40,096 nucleotides of DNA from a virus, in IMG/VR virus record IMGVR_UViG_3300027971_002024, positions 1 to 40,096 of that record, one strand, 5' to 3'. A program made the translations under genes and the position numbers. Under the pieces are notes generated by a model. The model saw only the letters and a list, made by a program, of their open reading frames with translations, was not told the origin of the DNA and made no database searches. Of this stretch, positions 33,290 through 38,896 are shown in pieces; the stretch's first letter is position 1; the number at the start of each line of letters is the position of its first letter.

Positions 33290-33517
33290 ATGATTGGCAT
33301 GGTTCTTTCTGAAGCCACTGAAGCTGCGTTCCATGCTGCTATTGAGGCAGCTTATGCCCTTCATGATGAAGCTGCTTCCAGTGAGGAGCGGGAGGCTGCT
33401 GCAAGGCAGTATGACCAAGAAAAAAGAGAATATCTTCGTTTAAGTAGTGAGCAATGGTGGGAGAGGGAGTGCGAAGATTTTCCCGACTGTCAACAATGCA
33501 AGGACTATGACTGCTAA
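33290..33517 (+). CDS. Small acidic protein
   Basis: A 75-residue protein rich in Glu and Ala, with a likely coiled helix (EAAYALHDEAASSEEREAAA) and a Cys-rich end (ECEDFPDCQQCKDYDC) that could bind metal. The ATG at 33290 or 33299 are both possible. It follows the preceding small gene by 21 bases. Function is unknown. Confidence 0.6.
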   Translation: MIGMVLSEATEAAFHAAIEAAYALHDEAASSEEREAAARQYDQEKREYLRLSSEQWWERECEDFPDCQQCKDYDC

Positions 33518-33626
33518 ACTCTTGGAGCTTCTGCAGAAGCCCATCGGCCGATGGTTGCCAGCATTCTCGTCCATGCTGGCTTTAACGGGGATTCCAAGTG
33601 AGTTGAAGCACTTGCCCACTGTTTAA
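33507..33626 (+). CDS. Possible 39-residue protein overlapping previous gene end
   Basis: An ATG at 33507, inside the last codons of the preceding gene, opens a 39-codon frame (MTAKLLELLQKPIGRWLPAF...) ending TAA at 33626. The peptide is amphipathic. Overlap would allow coupled translation. It is short and has no known motif, so it may be chance. Confidence 0.3.
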   Translation: MTAKLLELLQKPIGRWLPAFSSMLALTGIPSELKHLPTV

Positions 33627-33628
33627 CG

Positions 33629-33683
33629 AAAGCAGAGCACAGGCCGCACCTGTTGATCGTCTATTGCGACGAAACTCTGCTTT
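33629..33683 (+). terminator. Inverted repeat, possible terminator or tRNA leader structure
   Basis: AAAGCAGAG (33629-33637) and CTCTGCTTT (33675-33683) pair perfectly across a 37-base interior that holds a smaller ACAGG/CCTGT stem. The right arm ends in TTTT just before the tRNA. It could end the terminase operon or act in tRNA processing. Confidence 0.4.
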
Positions 33684-33686
33684 TAC

Positions 33687-33762
33687 GCCCCTGTAGCCCA
33701 ATTGGAAGTAGGCAGCGAATTTAAGCTTCGCACAGGTGTCAGTTCAAATCTGACTAGGGGCA
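33687..33762 (+). tRNA. tRNA with UAA anticodon (Leu by codon), short variable loop
   Basis: The acceptor stem GCCCCTG/TAGGGGC, T stem GTCAG/CTGAC with loop TTCAAAT, and anticodon stem GCGAA/TTCGC all pair. The anticodon loop TTTAAGC gives UAA at 33722-33724, which reads UUA (Leu). D loop AATTGGAAGTA has the conserved GG. The variable region is only six bases (ACAGGT); bacterial tRNA-Leu normally has a long variable arm, so charging identity is uncertain. CCA is not encoded. The discriminator is A. It may help translate UUA codons or replace a cleaved host tRNA. Confidence 0.8.
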
Positions 33763-33980
33763 TTAGTCGAATGATTATCTTGCAGCAGTTCTTCCTGTGA
33801 GTGAATATAAGCTTTTAACTCATGCAAATAATGCCTGAGTTCATTTGCCTTTTCTGAATGCCAAGGATCACGATGGGAAAGAAATAGTTCAGTGTGACTG
33901 TCAATTGCCTTCAGGATGTTATGAATGGGAGCATTCCACCGTGACCTCACTGGAGTGTCAAACGTGCGCCGTTCGTTCAT
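33744..33980 (-). CDS. Small conserved-looking protein, unknown function
   Basis: A 78-residue protein from MNERRTF at 33980 (an ATG three codons upstream is possible). VRSRWNAPIHNILKAIDSHT and SEKANELRHYLHELKAYIHS read as a helical pair. It overlaps the phosphoesterase end by 23 bases and its own 3' end overlaps the tRNA on the other strand by 19 bases. Function is unknown. Confidence 0.6.
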   Translation of the reverse strand: MNERRTFDTPVRSRWNAPIHNILKAIDSHTELFLSHRDPWHSEKANELRHYLHELKAYIHSQEELLQDNHSTNAPSQI

Positions 33981-34497
33981 TGCCCGCAAAGTAGGCTTTG
34001 ATTTCTTCCAATGCTACTGGAGTAAAATCATGCTGTTCTACGCAGCTATTGAAATAGCGCTTATCCTTTTCTCCATTATCAAGCCTGACTGAATGACAGT
34101 GAAGATGACCGTGTACATTACCGATGTAACGGCCCTCAAAAGACTTGCTATGGATGGGAATATGGGTGAAGATTAAGCCATCGCGAACAAAGGCCCCGCG
34201 AATATCATCAAAATATGGCAAGTAATCCTTAAGCTTAAATATGTCATGATTTCCCTTGATGAGAACTTTGCTCCCATTGAATTCATTCAAAAGGCAAAGT
34301 GAATTTCGTGCAATGGCTACATCGCCAAGGATGTACACTCTATCCTTGGGAGAAATTATTTTATTCCAGCGACTAATCAAGACATTGTGCATGTCTGCTA
34401 GGTTCATGAAAGGACGTAGCAGGCTTCCATCTGGCTTGAGGAAAGTGAGGCTTTTATTGTGCCCCAAATGAAGGTCTGAAGTGACAAAGGCGCTCAT
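33958..34497 (-). CDS. Metallophosphoesterase (calcineurin-like)
   Basis: A 179-residue protein from the ATG at 34497 (MSAFVTSDLHLGHN); the frame extends 11 codons upstream without support. Metal-binding motifs are in order: SDLHLGH, then YILGDVAI, then LIKGNHDIFK, then FTHIPIH and NVHGHLH. This is the full calcineurin-like set (D-x-H, GD, GNHD, H, GHxH). Small phage enzymes of this kind may act on nucleotides, cyclic signals or nucleic acid ends; the substrate is not readable. It follows the tRNA-like element. Confidence 0.9.
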   Translation of the reverse strand: MSAFVTSDLHLGHNKSLTFLKPDGSLLRPFMNLADMHNVLISRWNKIISPKDRVYILGDVAIARNSLCLLNEFNGSKVLIKGNHDIFKLKDYLPYFDDIRGAFVRDGLIFTHIPIHSKSFEGRYIGNVHGHLHCHSVRLDNGEKDKRYFNSCVEQHDFTPVALEEIKAYFAGNERTAHV

Positions 34498-34539
34498 GGT
34501 TTCGTAAGGATGACGCCACCAATTTACCATGGGCGGGAA

Positions 34540-34606
34540 GGGCGCTTCTGGGAATCGAACCCAGTGTTCCAGGCTATGTGCCTGGCGTGATCCAACACCA
34601 AGGGCC
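34540..34606 (-). tRNA. Minimal or degenerate tRNA-like element with CAU loop
   Basis: On the minus strand: acceptor GGCCCTT/AAGCGCC (six of seven pairs), T stem CTGGG/CCCAG with loop TTCGATT, and anticodon-type stem CCAGG/CCTGG with loop CACATAG, giving CAU at 34578-34576. Only 14 bases separate the acceptor from the anticodon stem, so the D arm is at most three pairs with a six-base loop. Position 33 is A instead of the near-universal U. It is 67 bases long with no CCA. It could be a decayed tRNA-Met, or the 3' tRNA-like end of the structured RNA upstream. Confidence 0.5.
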
Positions 34607-34610
34607 AGTG

Positions 34611-34980
34611 ACCCCCTTGTTTGAGCATTGTTAAGAGGCTTAGGGGGTGTTTAAGCGGTCTCTGCAAAGTAGGTCACCGGCTATTGCCAGCAACCACCGC
34701 TAGGTCCGTCGAGCTTGCCAAATGGGTCGAGGGCTCCAAGGTGGACCAAACCCTACGCAGACGCAAGGACCAGAATTTTCCAGTCCTTGTGCTGCTCTCC
34801 ATCGACAGAGCAATGGAGGGAAAGCTGATTTCCATTTTTAGCACCCCAGACTACGGAAACCAGGAAATGGCATCTGAGGATTGACAGAAGAACTTGGTGT
34901 GACTGACCTACCGACAATCGGGCTGTGAGTGAACCAGGCGTAGACAAACAGGGACCAAGCCTCTATCGTTTCAAACTATA
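34611..34980 (-). ncRNA. Candidate structured RNA, unknown class
   Basis: This stretch between the reductase beta gene and the tRNA-like element has no convincing gene. The minus-strand RNA forms many helices: 34861-34855 with 34833-34827 (7 pairs), 34818-34811 with 34804-34797 (8), 34788-34778 with 34775-34765 (11, two-base loop), 34753-34748 with 34736-34731 (6), 34695-34686 with 34681-34672 (10, four-base loop), and an outer 34960-34954 with 34898-34892 (7). Each uses G-U pairs that become C-A mismatches on the plus strand, so the structure belongs to the minus strand. Local GC is higher than in neighbouring genes. It is not a recognisable tmRNA, RNase P RNA or group I intron. Confidence 0.6.
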
Positions 34981-34983
34981 GCA

Positions 34984-35718
34984 CTACGCAGCGCCATAGG
35001 CAGGAAGGTTCAGCGAATTCACCTCAAAGAATGCTGGCATGACGCTGGCAGTGGTGTCGCTCAGTTCAGGAGCTTTGCCGCTAATGAATAAGCTATCGCT
35101 TTGACGCAGCCAGAAGTCCTTATCTAGATACTTATTAGACGATTGGCCAAGATTGTCATAAATCCACAGCGCTGTCATCTTACGCAGTTTGTTCAAGCTA
35201 TTGCCATACTTTTCACCAGCTTCTTCACAAATCTTGGTATGGCAAAAAGCATGACAAATTTCGTCCCTTGAAATGTCACTAGCAACAGTGCGCAGTCCTT
35301 TGTCACCATTGAAACGAAAGAAAGGAAGAATAGTGAAGAACAGGCTCCTTTCCAGCACTGCCACCTTGGCAATGGGGTGGGCGGGGTGGTCTGCCCATGC
35401 TTGCCGAATGCGGAAAGCTTCCTTTTCTGCTTTTTCGTCAGTGCCATGAGCTGCCGCCACATAGTTCAAGGCAAGGTCATGACGCTCTTCATCAAGGATG
35501 TTGCTATGGATGCTCTCGATGAGCCCAGGAGATGCCGGAAGGTCACGCTCTAGGCCTTCTAGCAGCATGTCCTTTACAGGCAGCTCAAGGTGGCGAATGG
35601 CCAGTGCTCGCATGATGGTTTCTTCTGCACCTTCGACAAAGGCGCCTTTGGTCACTGGCACTGCTTGCCAAGGACGCTTTTTAGCCACTGCAGTAAAATA
35701 ATCGAGCTTGGTAGCCAT
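34984..35718 (-). CDS. nrdB: Ribonucleotide reductase class I beta-like subunit
   Basis: A 244-residue ferritin-like protein from the ATG at 35718 (MATKLDYFTAVAKK); a 49-codon upstream extension crosses a terminator and is rejected. Metal ligands fit the class I R2 pattern: NILDEERHDLAL (E77, H80), VLERSLFF (E123), SRDEICHAFCH (E153, H156), with a first Glu near residues 29-45. The radical Tyr, expected four residues after H80, is Leu (L84); a Tyr is at 86. The protein is shorter than E. coli NrdB (376). It should supply the radical for the adjacent alpha subunit to make deoxynucleotides. Confidence 0.85.
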   Translation of the reverse strand: MATKLDYFTAVAKKRPWQAVPVTKGAFVEGAEETIMRALAIRHLELPVKDMLLEGLERDLPASPGLIESIHSNILDEERHDLALNYVAAAHGTDEKAEKEAFRIRQAWADHPAHPIAKVAVLERSLFFTILPFFRFNGDKGLRTVASDISRDEICHAFCHTKICEEAGEKYGNSLNKLRKMTALWIYDNLGQSSNKYLDKDFWLRQSDSLFISGKAPELSDTTASVMPAFFEVNSLNLPAYGAA

Positions 35719-35754
35719 AGAGGAAAAGGGCGATGGGAAAAAAGAGACAATAAA

Positions 35755-35774
35755 AGGCAGCAAAGATGCTGCCT
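35755..35774 (-). terminator. Hairpin terminator between the reductase genes
   Basis: AGGCAGC and GCTGCCT pair perfectly with a six-base loop. On the minus strand TTTTATTG follows; on the plus strand CATTTTTT follows, so it could work in both directions. It lies 14 bases after the alpha subunit stop and 36 before the beta ATG, so beta may be expressed by read-through or from its own promoter. Confidence 0.75.
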
Positions 35775-35788
35775 CATTTTTTAATAGT

Positions 35789-37219
35789 TCATTCAGCGCA
35801 ACTGCTGCAGAACCCAGCATCAAAAGAAGACACTTCAGGCTCGTCGTCGAGACTAAAGAACTCACTCAGGCTCTCTTCCAAGTCTACTCCAACATCATCC
35901 TTTGCTTGCGTATTTCCCTGCACTTGAAGAGCGTAATAAAGAGAAGTTTGCGGACTATTAAGCCATTCACGAAGGAAATCTTCGTCGCATGAAACCATAT
36001 CGCTCCACCAGTTCATTGAATAACCATGGAGAAGACCAGTGCCTTCCATGATCTTCATGATGCCATCTGCCACTTTACGGAAATCTTTCCAGCCCACTTG
36101 CTCAGCCGTTTCAACGAGGCCATAATCAAACCGTTCCACTCCCATCGTCTCACTATCGCGATCAACAACTTGAGCAATGGGAGGGGCAATTTCTGGCGTG
36201 GTAGTGAAGCCTTCAAGATCAAGGTAGCGGTAGGAGCAAGAGGCAGTAGGAGCAATGGCAAAGGCACGTTGCATGCCGTATTTACGAGCTACTTCCGCTG
36301 CCCTTTCAATTGCCACCACTAGCTCAAAAGTGATGTCAGCAACTTTCGTATTGTTTAGTTTTGTCCATTCAGTAACATCCGTGCCATTCCATGCTTCCAA
36401 GGCTTCTCCAAATTCTTTGTAAGTGACGCCATGGATGGAAAGGAAATTGGCGAGACCAAGCATACCAAGACCCACTTGCTTATCTTGATCAGGACCAAGG
36501 TATTCAGAAGTGTTTCCTACGCCTGTACGAGCATGAAGCTCGCACAATTCTTTCATTGCCTCTGGAAAAACATCGTGCAAATCGTCCACTTTGCAAGCGC
36601 CAAGATTTACATGCTGCAGCAAACAAGTGCCTCGCGATGGCATGGCAACTTCCAAGCACACTTGGAAATACACTCGCTCACCATTTTTGTCATATTTCTT
36701 TTTAACAAGCCAAATATCACCATTAGAAATGCCTTTGATCAACTGTGCCCTGAATTCTGGGCTGGTTTTATCAAAGAAATCACTGTCTACATTTAATGCG
36801 CGTTTTGCCCATTGAAGCTCTTCTCGCTTCATGGAAATAAATTCCATGGCATCAGGGTGATCGTAATCAAGATGAAGCACTACAGCGCCGTTCTTGAACT
36901 TGCCCCCGCGACGAAGAATTTCATTCAACGTGGAATAGATCTTGCCGAATGAACAAGGACCGGAAGCCGTGAGGCCCTTGCCATTCTGGTGATTGCGACC
37001 ACGAAGCTTGGACAAATGAATGGCTACGCCAGCACCATTGCGAAGACCATGGGAAGTAAAGCGCCAAGACGCTTCAATGCCATTCCTCCCTTCCATTGAG
37101 TCTTCTACCACCATCACAGCACAACTCACTGGCAGGCGTCCTTCAGGATCATTCATCCAGCTTTCAATGCGACCAGTGCGAGCAATCTTTTCGCAACGTG
37201 CGTTTTCTTTGAGCTTCAT
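35789..37219 (-). CDS. nrdA: Ribonucleotide reductase alpha subunit, compact class I type
   Basis: A 476-residue catalytic subunit. Active-site Cys: C33 (LPVSCAVMVVED), C188 in VYFQVCLEVAMPS with E190, and C199 (RGTCLLQHVNLGACK). IAPTASCSYRYLDLEGF follows, then SLYYALQVQG with Y428/Y429, the pair for radical transfer from a class I beta subunit. The C-terminus ends GFCSSCAE, the shuttle Cys pair. The N-terminal ATP-cone is absent and the protein is much shorter than E. coli NrdA (761). The core sequence style (GTCLLQHVNL) looks class II-like, but YY and the adjacent beta gene argue for class I. The usual Asn of N-x-C-x-E is Gln (Q186). Confidence 0.93.
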   Translation of the reverse strand: MKLKENARCEKIARTGRIESWMNDPEGRLPVSCAVMVVEDSMEGRNGIEASWRFTSHGLRNGAGVAIHLSKLRGRNHQNGKGLTASGPCSFGKIYSTLNEILRRGGKFKNGAVVLHLDYDHPDAMEFISMKREELQWAKRALNVDSDFFDKTSPEFRAQLIKGISNGDIWLVKKKYDKNGERVYFQVCLEVAMPSRGTCLLQHVNLGACKVDDLHDVFPEAMKELCELHARTGVGNTSEYLGPDQDKQVGLGMLGLANFLSIHGVTYKEFGEALEAWNGTDVTEWTKLNNTKVADITFELVVAIERAAEVARKYGMQRAFAIAPTASCSYRYLDLEGFTTTPEIAPPIAQVVDRDSETMGVERFDYGLVETAEQVGWKDFRKVADGIMKIMEGTGLLHGYSMNWWSDMVSCDEDFLREWLNSPQTSLYYALQVQGNTQAKDDVGVDLEESLSEFFSLDDEPEVSSFDAGFCSSCAE

Positions 37220-37221
37220 GA

Positions 37222-37248
37222 GACAACAAAAGCCCGCTCCAGGCGGGC
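37222..37248 (-). terminator. Intrinsic terminator upstream of alpha subunit gene
   Basis: GCCCGC (37248-37243) and GCGGGC (37237-37232) pair with a five-base loop and are followed on the minus strand by TTTTGTTGTC. It lies between a small gene ending at 37262 and the reductase ATG at 37219. Confidence 0.8.
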
Positions 37249-37261
37249 CGTGACAACAGCT

Positions 37262-37462
37262 CTAGCCTAGCTCAATACTGGGGATGTCTTGGCTGGCTGC
37301 TTGCATTTTCTTAGCAAAAGCAACGGCCTCCGCCTTGGAACGAAAATAAAATGGTTCTCCTAGGTGGGCAATAAACCATTGATATTCAGGGCGACTATGT
37401 ACTGGCCATATTTTTATATCATCCATCATGAACGGACAAGGAAGATCATTGAACATGCTCAT
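37262..37462 (-). CDS. Small protein, possibly DUF2188-like
   Basis: A 66-residue protein from the ATG at 37462 (MSMFNDLPCPFMMDDIKIWP). The end GEPFYFRSKAEAVAFAKKMQ resembles the s.k.eA...Ak.l end of DUF2188-type small proteins. The SD is GGAGG inside the terminator hairpin just upstream, eight bases from the ATG. A longer frame to 37558 would cross the hairpin. Function unknown. Confidence 0.7.
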   Translation of the reverse strand: MSMFNDLPCPFMMDDIKIWPVHSRPEYQWFIAHLGEPFYFRSKAEAVAFAKKMQAASQDIPSIELG

Positions 37463-37490
37463 AAAAAAAGCCTCCGGCAAGCAGAAGGCT
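37463..37490 (-). terminator. Intrinsic terminator whose 3' arm is the next gene's SD
   Basis: AGCCTTC (37490-37484) pairs with GGAGGCT (37475-37469, one G-U) around an eight-base loop, followed by TTTTTTAT and then the ATG at 37462. GGAGG in the 3' arm is eight bases from the ATG. This is the same design as at 17093-17121. Confidence 0.85.
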
Positions 37491-37524
37491 AAGAGCAATG
37501 GGGGAGAAAGTGGTGTGGTGCTTG

Positions 37525-37914
37525 TTACACAGCAGTGGCAATGTAAGGGTTGAAACACTCAGAGAGTAGCTCCCTCGCGGAAAAGTCTTTCGCAAAGCCA
37601 TCCTTCTCATAGACTCTGTCGAGCCATTTATGAATGACTGTAAAAATGACATCAGTGCAGGTCCATTCATTTTGTCTGTTATCTCTAACGATTTGCAACA
37701 CTTGATCGTAAATATCTGTTTCTTCTTCTTTTGCCTCCGCTTCTGCTTTTGCCATCAAATAACCAAGGGCTCCTGCACCAGCCTTGCTAGTGGCACATTC
37801 CAACATTTCAAGACGATCCTTTAGCTTATTGAACTCTTGAGGGTTGTCCAGTACGTGTTTGGTGACAACTTTACTGAACTCATTGAAAAACTCAGCAGGA
37901 ATGCGAGAAGCCAT
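37525..37914 (-). CDS. Hypothetical protein, helical
   Basis: A 129-residue protein from the ATG at 37914 (MASRIPAEFFNEFSKVVTKH); a TTG start seven codons earlier would overlap the previous stop. It is helical and acidic in the middle (KAEAEAKEEETDIYDQVLQI). No family was recognised. A terminator follows 35 bases after its stop. It belongs to the minus-strand run upstream of the reductase. Confidence 0.7.
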   Translation of the reverse strand: MASRIPAEFFNEFSKVVTKHVLDNPQEFNKLKDRLEMLECATSKAGAGALGYLMAKAEAEAKEEETDIYDQVLQIVRDNRQNEWTCTDVIFTVIHKWLDRVYEKDGFAKDFSARELLSECFNPYIATAV

Positions 37915-37928
37915 GAAAGAGAAGCAGG

Positions 37929-38171
37929 TCACCAATCAGGATAGGAGGGCTCAGACGCAGTGTCAAGCTGGTGGTTAATGGAGAAAGACAAAAGGTCGGC
38001 CTGGTAGCCATTGCACTTCGCCCCTCCAAGCTTCCAGAGGCATGTGCGAGTGGGCTTCATCGCCTTCTCAATTTCTCTTAAGGCCGTAGTGAAATAACGC
38101 CTGGATGGCACGTGCAGCTTCCATTGCTGCGTCACTGTGATCAAGGCTTCTTGTGGCTCGTGGTATCCCAT
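37929..38171 (-). CDS. Hypothetical protein
   Basis: An 80-residue protein whose ATG overlaps the stop of the previous gene (TGATG). It contains PSRRYFTTALREIEKAMKPT and CLWKLGGAKCNGYQ. No family was recognised. The overlap is the main support for it being real. Confidence 0.62.
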   Translation of the reverse strand: MGYHEPQEALITVTQQWKLHVPSRRYFTTALREIEKAMKPTRTCLWKLGGAKCNGYQADLLSFSINHQLDTASEPSYPDW

Positions 38172-38896
38172 CAGGCCATACCCCTACCGAGACGAGTGGA
38201 AAAAGCGCTTTTTCTTTTGGGCCGACTGTTTTCATAATCATCTTCCGCATCTAACAGTATTTTTTCTCCCAATGCTGTCAGACGATAGCACTTGGCTGTG
38301 TTTTTAATTGCCAAACCTTCTTCGACAATGGAGGCTAAGCAGTTGTAAATGGTTTTTGCTTCATATAGTCCTTTATTTGATGGGTGGTTAATAATACCAT
38401 TAGACGTAGAAAAGAAGCCATTGCTATCAATATCATTAAGAGCCCAAATCACATAGGTGCGGGCATTGACAATGAAAGGAGGAATTCGATGAGTTTTTTG
38501 TGCAGCCTCCAAGAGTTCCCTTTTGGTCGCCGCCATTGGATGCCACTTCACGCAATCATCCATCCATCTGCCAATACTGGCCTGAGCCTCCTTTGTCTGA
38601 CAAGGCATGTCTTGCTGAATGAAACGTTGCAAGCCTGGCGTAAGGAGGAACCATTCCCTGCTATCCCTACACCCATCGAAACGCTCGTGCAAAAGCTTCT
38701 CATCTTCCATGTTGGCACCAAAAGCTTTGAGGACGACTAGGCGATGACGACATGCAGTGAGAAATGTTGAGAATCGCCCTTTCAAGTCTGTAGTAAAACC
38801 AATTTTGACTGCGTAAGGATCATTTTCCCACTGGACGACGTACACCCAGCCTTCATTTTGCTTTTTAGCCACTTTCCTGACTGGCATAGTGCCCAT
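38171..38896 (-). CDS. GIY-YIG-like (T5orf172 / MUG113 type) protein with C-terminal winged helix
   Basis: A 241-residue protein. Residues 17-95 read WVYVVQWENDPYAVKIGFTT, then GRFSTFLTACRHRLVVL and EDEKLLHERFDGCRDSREWF. This is the pattern of T5orf172/MUG113 domains, a GIY-YIG nuclease branch (Y-V..., K-I-G-t, R, then E...h.rF...r...EWf). The C-terminal 100 residues include YEAKTIYNCLASIVEEGLAI and KCYRLTALGEKIL, like a winged helix. ATGs at 38896 or 38887 are both possible. It may be a nuclease or DNA-binding regulator. An inverted repeat starts two bases upstream. Confidence 0.8.
   Translation of the reverse strand: MGTMPVRKVAKKQNEGWVYVVQWENDPYAVKIGFTTDLKGRFSTFLTACRHRLVVLKAFGANMEDEKLLHERFDGCRDSREWFLLTPGLQRFIQQDMPCQTKEAQASIGRWMDDCVKWHPMAATKRELLEAAQKTHRIPPFIVNARTYVIWALNDIDSNGFFSTSNGIINHPSNKGLYEAKTIYNCLASIVEEGLAIKNTAKCYRLTALGEKILLDAEDDYENSRPKRKSAFSTRLGRGMA

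Follow-up and report, generated by a model that had tools for sequence, protein, structure and literature searches.

An orphan abiF RNA at the end of an array of small structured RNAs in a cyanophage: a candidate decoy antitoxin

The locus described here (34611-34980, minus strand; 370 bases as first delimited, from nrdB to a tRNA-like element) belongs to a viral record of 40,096 nucleotides, analysed over its full length and hereafter called the window, and consists of several distinct small structured RNAs in a row on the minus strand, the last of which is an abiF RNA without a toxin gene. Bacterial abiF RNA forms the leader of the gene of the toxin AbiF, a HEPN RNase that it binds and silences as an RNA antitoxin (PMC12373285). 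We consider it probable (roughly 60%) that the orphan abiF RNA is a trans-acting decoy antitoxin of the phage against host AbiF, its 3' end probably being generated by RNase P.

The cyanophage locus and its abiF RNA

Judged by its proteins, the source virus is a cyanophage with a host placed no closer than cyanobacterial; its portal protein shares 66% identity with that of Synechococcus phage S-CBS4, and the nearest relatives of its NrdB are cyanophages. The RNA locus is flanked on its 5' side by nrdB (ribonucleotide reductase beta, 34984..35865, minus; PHROG 6799, E 2.5e-101) and on its 3' side by a phosphoesterase gene (33958..34530, minus; PHROG 547, E 4e-43), and the position between nrdB and a 67-nt tRNA-like element, given in an earlier note on this DNA, was borne out by the coordinates and by ARAGORN. 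Within 35789-38896, the ribonucleotide reductase large subunit has a short or split look (476 aa; profile in pieces) and a GIY-YIG type endonuclease gene (38171-38896) lies upstream of it; the large-subunit gene is possibly interrupted.

The 3' module (34611..34647, minus) is a member of the abiF RNA family RF03085, with 53.2 bits against a cut-off of 37 (E 1.8e-8) and a match to the Rfam covariance model that spans positions 1-37 of 37. Its stem is formed by CCCCCU:(A)GGGGG and AGC:GCU, and it carries the conserved loop CCUCU(U)AAC(A)AUGCUCAAA, conforming to the plain antitoxin consensus with no insertion in the apical loop. An alignment of 38 distinct phage abiF RNAs had 97.4% of its cells paired versus 73.4% in shuffles, with double changes at 8 of the 10 pairs and a total of 85 double-change cells versus 20.7 in shuffles. 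Since the scans fixed most loop bases, loop conservation in the phage copies is partly a matter of construction, and the conservation argument thus rests on the stem and two free loop positions; on this footing, compensatory stem changes together with the conserved loop argue that the RNA is under selection. Columns 15/19 of the abiF alignment (A4) form an additional covarying loop pair (U-A, C-G, A-U), which is unpaired in the Rfam consensus. Many cyanophage abiF RNAs were also observed to bear extra apical-loop hairpins of variable length (L246, L253, L254, L259-L264, L289, L291, L297-L299, L301, L307, L310, L342), often with an AUGCC..GCACAAA variant of the inner pair.

Structure and strand had been argued in the earlier note from the number of helices of 6-11 pairs with G-U pairs in the minus-strand transcript. 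Such helices are indeed present, for example at 34961/34891 (8 bp), 34863/34825 (11 bp), 34789/34764 (11 bp), 34695/34672 (10 bp), and 34648/34611 (7 bp). Their count is at chance level against dinucleotide shuffles of the same 370 bases, so that it cannot carry the claim: 50 helices of at least 6 pairs with one to three G-U were observed versus 44.8 +/- 6.1, a number reached by 37/200 shuffles, and the strands differed by 12 helices versus 7.1 +/- 8.6. Compared with the shuffles, folding energy was modestly better for the minus strand (z -2.67) and the plus strand (z -1.98) alike. Helix and G-U counting was therefore rejected as proof of structure, and structure and strand are proven instead by the minus-strand Rfam match and by covariation among homologues. 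Both checks had been proposed in the earlier note; the first returned the abiF RNA and the second compensatory changes in the abiF RNA and in the upstream modules m1, m2, and m5. A strand-specific, non-coding, structured RNA locus, as that note had it, consequently stands on the Rfam match, the covariation, and the lack of a conserved long ORF; a protein-coding reading was rejected, since the open frames, up to 90 codons from stop to stop, are not kept in the related viral locus L262. The idea of one RNA of unknown class had to be given up, because the modules recur elsewhere in other combinations and the 3' module is an abiF RNA.

Phage abiF RNAs without a toxin gene

No Abi_2 domain (PF07751) was found in the 40-kb phage record, which is possibly incomplete, and the locus is therefore an abiF RNA and not an AbiF toxin-antitoxin system. 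When viral contigs were scanned with the abiF loop pattern and unconstrained flanks, at least 120 loci were recovered, and the identical pattern gave at least 120 loci in bacterial genomes. Among the matches listed, whole-record searches of 155 viral records carrying abiF RNA or linked modules turned up Abi_2 in one, L068, where the RNA adjoins the gene in the usual bacterial arrangement; in bacterial genomes, again among the matches listed, Abi_2 was the first downstream ORF at 50/90 testable abiF RNA loci and was carried by 20 of 27 such genomes. The near-absence of Abi_2 from phage records, whereas it is usual at bacterial loci, marks the phage abiF RNA as an orphan.

Many viral records are fragments, and complete isolate genomes were therefore also checked: no Abi_2 was found in those of S-SZBM1, S-CREM1, S-SRM01, CRP-143, Redno2, Beem, Bromden, Mimi, and Acj61, whose abiF RNAs lie above the Rfam cut-off in all except Mimi (33 bits, below it). 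The abiF RNA extends to about 43 Mycobacterium phage records (L336-L338, hits H41-H84), among which two Omegavirus loci and Bromden have it above the Rfam cut-off with no Abi_2. It is likewise present as an orphan, away from tRNAs, in the T4-like Acinetobacter phage Acj61 (L340; 1502-1538, 58 bits) and in the T7-like Roseobacter phage CRP-143 (L004; 2502-2539, 50.8 bits). On the host side, clear AbiF/Abi_2 proteins (E <1e-39) were detected in 12 of 386 sampled Cyanobacteriota genomes, about 3% of a sample in which picocyanobacteria were not singled out by name, a rarity that counts against the decoy reading; abiF RNA was detected in eight, with an Abi_2 match at most 200 nt away in six of these.

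The best-characterized relative is RCd22 of C. difficile, which binds AbiF directly and so neutralises it both in cis and in trans, an activity that relies on the stem in its abiF motifs (PMC12373285). The window RNA resembles RCd22 in stem, loop, strand, and full-length model match. In contrast to RCd22 (PMC12373285), it has neither an abiF gene nor a U-run terminator, it consists of a single motif where native antitoxins of this kind can have two (a further point against a decoy), and it is set among phage genes with a tRNA-like element 4 nt downstream. For an apparent relative of AbiF, the structure has been solved (PDB 8vz6).

That a phage might carry the RNA part of a host defence system has precedents. 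The pseudo-ToxI RNA of phage phiTE mimics a type III antitoxin and was demonstrated by test to block ToxIN abortive infection (PMC3475682); there, toxin family (ToxN) and direct-repeat RNA differ and the sequence is unrelated, so the likeness to the window is one of working principle. Racr RNA anti-CRISPRs are solitary CRISPR-repeat mimics carried by phages that act on Cas proteins (PMC10651486) and, as in the window, a solitary copy of the defence system's own RNA is found in a phage. In this context, the locus suggests, on our analysis, a further case of RNA mimicry of antitoxins.

Situated on the strand of nrdB and the phosphoesterase gene, between both and with no terminator, the abiF RNA would most simply be part of their transcript. 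We infer that the RNA is expressed, cut by RNase P, bound by AbiF, and protective of the phage. During infection, it would be made within an nrdA-nrdB-RNA-array-phosphoesterase transcript; RNase P would then cut before the tRNA-like element, releasing an RNA that ends in ...GGGGGUCACU. In an AbiF-bearing host, the free abiF RNA would bind AbiF and keep it from halting growth or shutting the cell down, and the modules upstream would be further independent phage RNAs of the same transcript.

The opposite use of the toxin deserves mention, in which the phage RNA would not silence host AbiF but would, by recruiting or redirecting it, make a weapon of it, for instance against competing phages. AbiF has been cited as the ancestor of the RNA-guided Cas13 (PMC12373285), and the extra apical-loop hairpins of some phage copies (L254, L262, L289, L297, L298) could alter AbiF action; yet the window copy has no such insertion and fits the plain antitoxin consensus, and inhibition is the activity of abiF RNAs found on testing, as far as the parts of that report drawn on here go (PMC12373285). 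We regard such a weapon as very improbable.

The tRNA-like element and the 3' end of the abiF RNA

A spacer of 4 nt (CACU, 34607..34610, minus) separates the abiF RNA from the 67-nt tRNA-like element (34540..34606, minus), which ARAGORN calls as tRNA-Met(CAT). The earlier suggestion that the tRNA-like part might be the 3' end of a large RNA does not agree with this layout, in which it is a separate element past the abiF RNA. It has a 7-bp acceptor stem with one C.C mismatch, a short D arm, an anticodon-like arm with the loop CACAUAG and an A at position 33 (no U33), a T arm CUGGG-UUCGAUU-CCCAG, and a single nucleotide between acceptor and D stem, where the canonical 8-9 linker has two. RF00005 did not match 34540-34606 even at an E of 10, while a tRNA-Leu(TAA) on the strand opposite to the RNA array (33687-33762, plus) scored 48.7 bits. 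Although ARAGORN does call the element, a canonical elongator tRNA was rejected on the missing RF00005 match, A33, the one-nt linker, and the C.C mismatch. The only Rfam likeness is to mascRNA/menRNA (26.9 bits, sub-threshold), and the element is most likely a processing signal, proposed here to serve RNase P/RNase Z.

In MALAT1-mascRNA/menRNA, the RNA that precedes a tRNA-like structure gets its 3' end through RNase P cleavage at that structure. That system is eukaryotic and no homology to it is claimed, RNase P cleavage in the window being a prediction. No U-run terminator of the bacterial type follows the abiF RNA of the window, and for this reason RNase P cleavage at the tRNA-like element is the probable source of its 3' end. 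Among the bacterial matches listed, a U-run directly follows the abiF stem in 109/114 loci and a tRNA-like element follows the RNA in 3/114, the chance rate. In the first viral scan, by comparison, a strict acceptor-plus-T-arm element lay at most 10 nt downstream in 31 of the 117 matches listed (shuffles 1.3%) and a U-run lay downstream in 23 of these 117.

Among 132 non-redundant phage loci, a tRNA or tRNA-like element with acceptor plus T arm was present 2-7 nt downstream at 60 (shuffles 1.7%; a few of the 60 matches look like chance), and the spacer measured 4-5 nt in 51 of these 60. Since some of the scans behind this set favoured the 3' arm GGGGGUCRCU, the figure of the first scan (31/117) is the less biased one. 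About 40% of the loci (53/132) have neither a tRNA-like element nor a U-run, and RNase P is thus not a general maker of the 3' end. Some of the downstream elements are ordinary tRNAs (Ala, Gly, Pro, Val, Leu, Arg) and others are degenerate, with 31/60 recognised by ARAGORN; at L060, L070, and L116, the abiF RNA is followed by acceptor-T-arm minihelices of 47-48 nt, far below tRNA size. By their sequences, the elements keep the acceptor-T-arm part that RNase P reads and lose the decoding part. The L021/L023 arrays have a tRNA-like element with a second T-arm-like hairpin.

The same order of abiF RNA, 4 nt, and tRNA is found in S-SZBM1 (tRNA-Ala) and S-CREM1 (tRNA-Gly), the geometry recurs in S-SRM01, and in mycobacteriophage Bromden the abiF RNA lies between tRNA-Gly and tRNA-Lys, 4 nt before tRNA-Lys. 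The abiF sRNA of S-CREM1 has been reported as an Rfam match with no role assigned (PMC9964418; repeated in PMC12197685), and that paper, in the parts drawn on here, offers no analysis of toxin absence, tRNA spacing, or array context (PMC9964418). S-CREM1 agrees with the window in the 4-nt spacing to a tRNA and in having no Abi_2, whereas the window has a degenerate tRNA-like element and the modules m1-m6.

This proximity to tRNAs could be read in two other manners. The abiF RNA might be a cis element of tRNA maturation with no AbiF role, its stable hairpin serving at the 5' side either to protect tRNA(-like) transcripts or to terminate the mRNA upstream, in keeping with the fixed 4-5 nt spacing to several tRNA isotypes and to degenerate tRNA-likes and with the co-directional position behind nrdB. 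We hold this to be unlikely: only the stem should then matter, yet the loop remains of the AbiF type in RNAs whose stems covary freely (in part an outcome of how the search was constructed), and no tRNA directly follows the abiF RNA in Acj61, CRP-143, and the Mycobacterium Omegavirus loci. Alternatively, if AbiF islands sit at tRNA genes, the RNA might be a passenger acquired along with a tRNA and now functionless, as the many phage copies within tRNA clusters would allow. Bacterial abiF RNA is not found beside tRNAs (the chance rate given above, among the matches listed), the compensatory stem changes and conserved loop of the 38 distinct phage copies indicate selection, and copies occur in unrelated phages (cyano-, mycobacterio-, Acinetobacter, Roseobacter), all of which make a passenger extremely improbable. 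The decoy antitoxin remains our preferred reading of the orphan abiF RNA.

Upstream modules and the significance of the array

Upstream of the abiF RNA there are at least three covarying motifs (m1, m2, m5), two of them pseudoknots (m2, m5), which are absent from Rfam and, compared against it, are new RNA families. Module m1 (34890..34962, minus) is an RNA of about 73 nt with an 8-bp closing helix, recovered by pattern in 46 viral contigs; the inner 7 bp of this helix occur as seven distinct arm pairs, all fully complementary, and double changes were seen at 6/8 closing-helix pairs. An abiF core lies at most 400 nt downstream at 28/48 m1 loci, and no m1 was found in isolate phages. Module m2 (34824..34881, minus) is an H-type pseudoknot with conserved UGCCAUUU and CCRUAG; in seven homologues, including one from cyanophage S-SZBM1 and aligned by hand, 14 bp had 96.9% of their cells paired and each of the two stems showed compensatory changes; a wider m2 pattern added no loci. 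Module m5 (34699..34758, minus) is a pseudoknotted RNA from 38 viral loci, with the loop CCCUCGACCCAUUUGGCAAGC invariant or nearly so and covariation in three helices including the pseudoknot (92.3% paired versus 19-40% when slid; 46 double-change cells versus 19.3 in shuffles); its covariance model scores the window at 68.5 bits, the window being among the 28 model sequences.

Modules m3, m4, and m6 are structured and thinly tested. Module m3 (34791..34823, minus), a hairpin with a probable pseudoknot and the pairings CUCCA:UGGAG and UUGCU:AGCAG, was found by pattern at 12 viral loci and is represented by 13 distinct sequences including the window; its pairing is nearly invariant, and hence no covariation is claimed for it. 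Module m4 (34764..34789, minus) is an 11-bp hairpin, CAAGGACUGG(AAAAUU)CUGGUCCUUG, linked to m3 in several phages, and m6 (34651..34703, minus) is a 10-bp hairpin (34695/34672) with a homologue of 88% identity in L108 and too few sequences for covariation. Further conserved array modules are GCAUGAAACGCUCUGAAGCAAG (L016, L036, L262) and GGGUACGACAAGGAACGUUG (L343, L346).

The upstream modules are common to other uncultured cyanophages, in shuffled order. Across 132 upstream regions, 443/575 short shared segments stood at differing distances from the abiF RNA, which indicates that the modules are interchangeable; thus L262, whose abiF RNA has a hairpin in the apical loop, has m2-m5 and some of the surroundings of m1 in common with the window but another sequence in place of m6. 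Covariance-model searches of the 386 Cyanobacteriota genomes for m1 and m5 as candidate host antitoxins, run with no positive control, detected neither, and no upstream module was found in plasmids.

This interchangeability bears on the reading of the whole 370-nt region and the tRNA-like element as a single large, ornate RNA like GOLLD or ROOL, a kinship favoured in the earlier note. GOLLD and ROOL are, like the window RNAs, phage RNAs near tRNAs; here a tRNA-like element adjoins, in a phage, and the overall fold is slightly better than that of shuffles. The window nevertheless holds several short modules and not one large RNA, its modules are found elsewhere alone or in a changed order and spacing, and relatives insert or drop them (L016, L262, L293). 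Neither GOLLD nor ROOL was detected at the Rfam cut-off across the window or at E <=10 in 33400-35900; with no sequence or model match, membership was rejected and the suggested kinship was not upheld. We judge a single large RNA quite improbable.

Kinship of m1, m2, and m5 with ToxI as type III toxin-antitoxin antitoxins was likewise rejected, given that they are single copies with no tandem repeats and that their neighbours are nrdB and the phosphoesterase gene, with no endoribonuclease toxin gene; pseudoknot shape alone was not counted as membership. A broader and rather unlikely reading is that of a counter-defence array, in which each of the interchangeable RNAs would imitate the RNA component of another host system, be it for defence or a toxin, and would be released from a shared transcript by tRNA-like elements with no remaining part in translation; the abiF RNA would then serve against AbiF, and m1, m2, m3, and m5 might address yet-unknown systems.

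In the open-licence literature we found nothing on orphan phage abiF RNAs beyond S-CREM1, and the orphan pattern, the tRNA(-like) spacing, the apical-loop hairpins, and the linked covarying RNAs appear to be undescribed there. If the decoy reading is true, antidote RNA mimicry, known for ToxI and CRISPR repeats, would extend to AbiF, the Cas13 ancestor, and would be common across phages of several hosts, including Synechococcus, M. smegmatis, and Acinetobacter isolates. Furthermore, the arrangement of abiF RNA, 4 nt, and tRNA-like element would be a bacterial-virus counterpart of 3'-end formation of the MALAT1/mascRNA type, and would give one reason for phages keeping broken tRNAs. Finally, m1, m2, and m5, in steady company with a known antitoxin RNA, may offer a lead to unknown defence systems.
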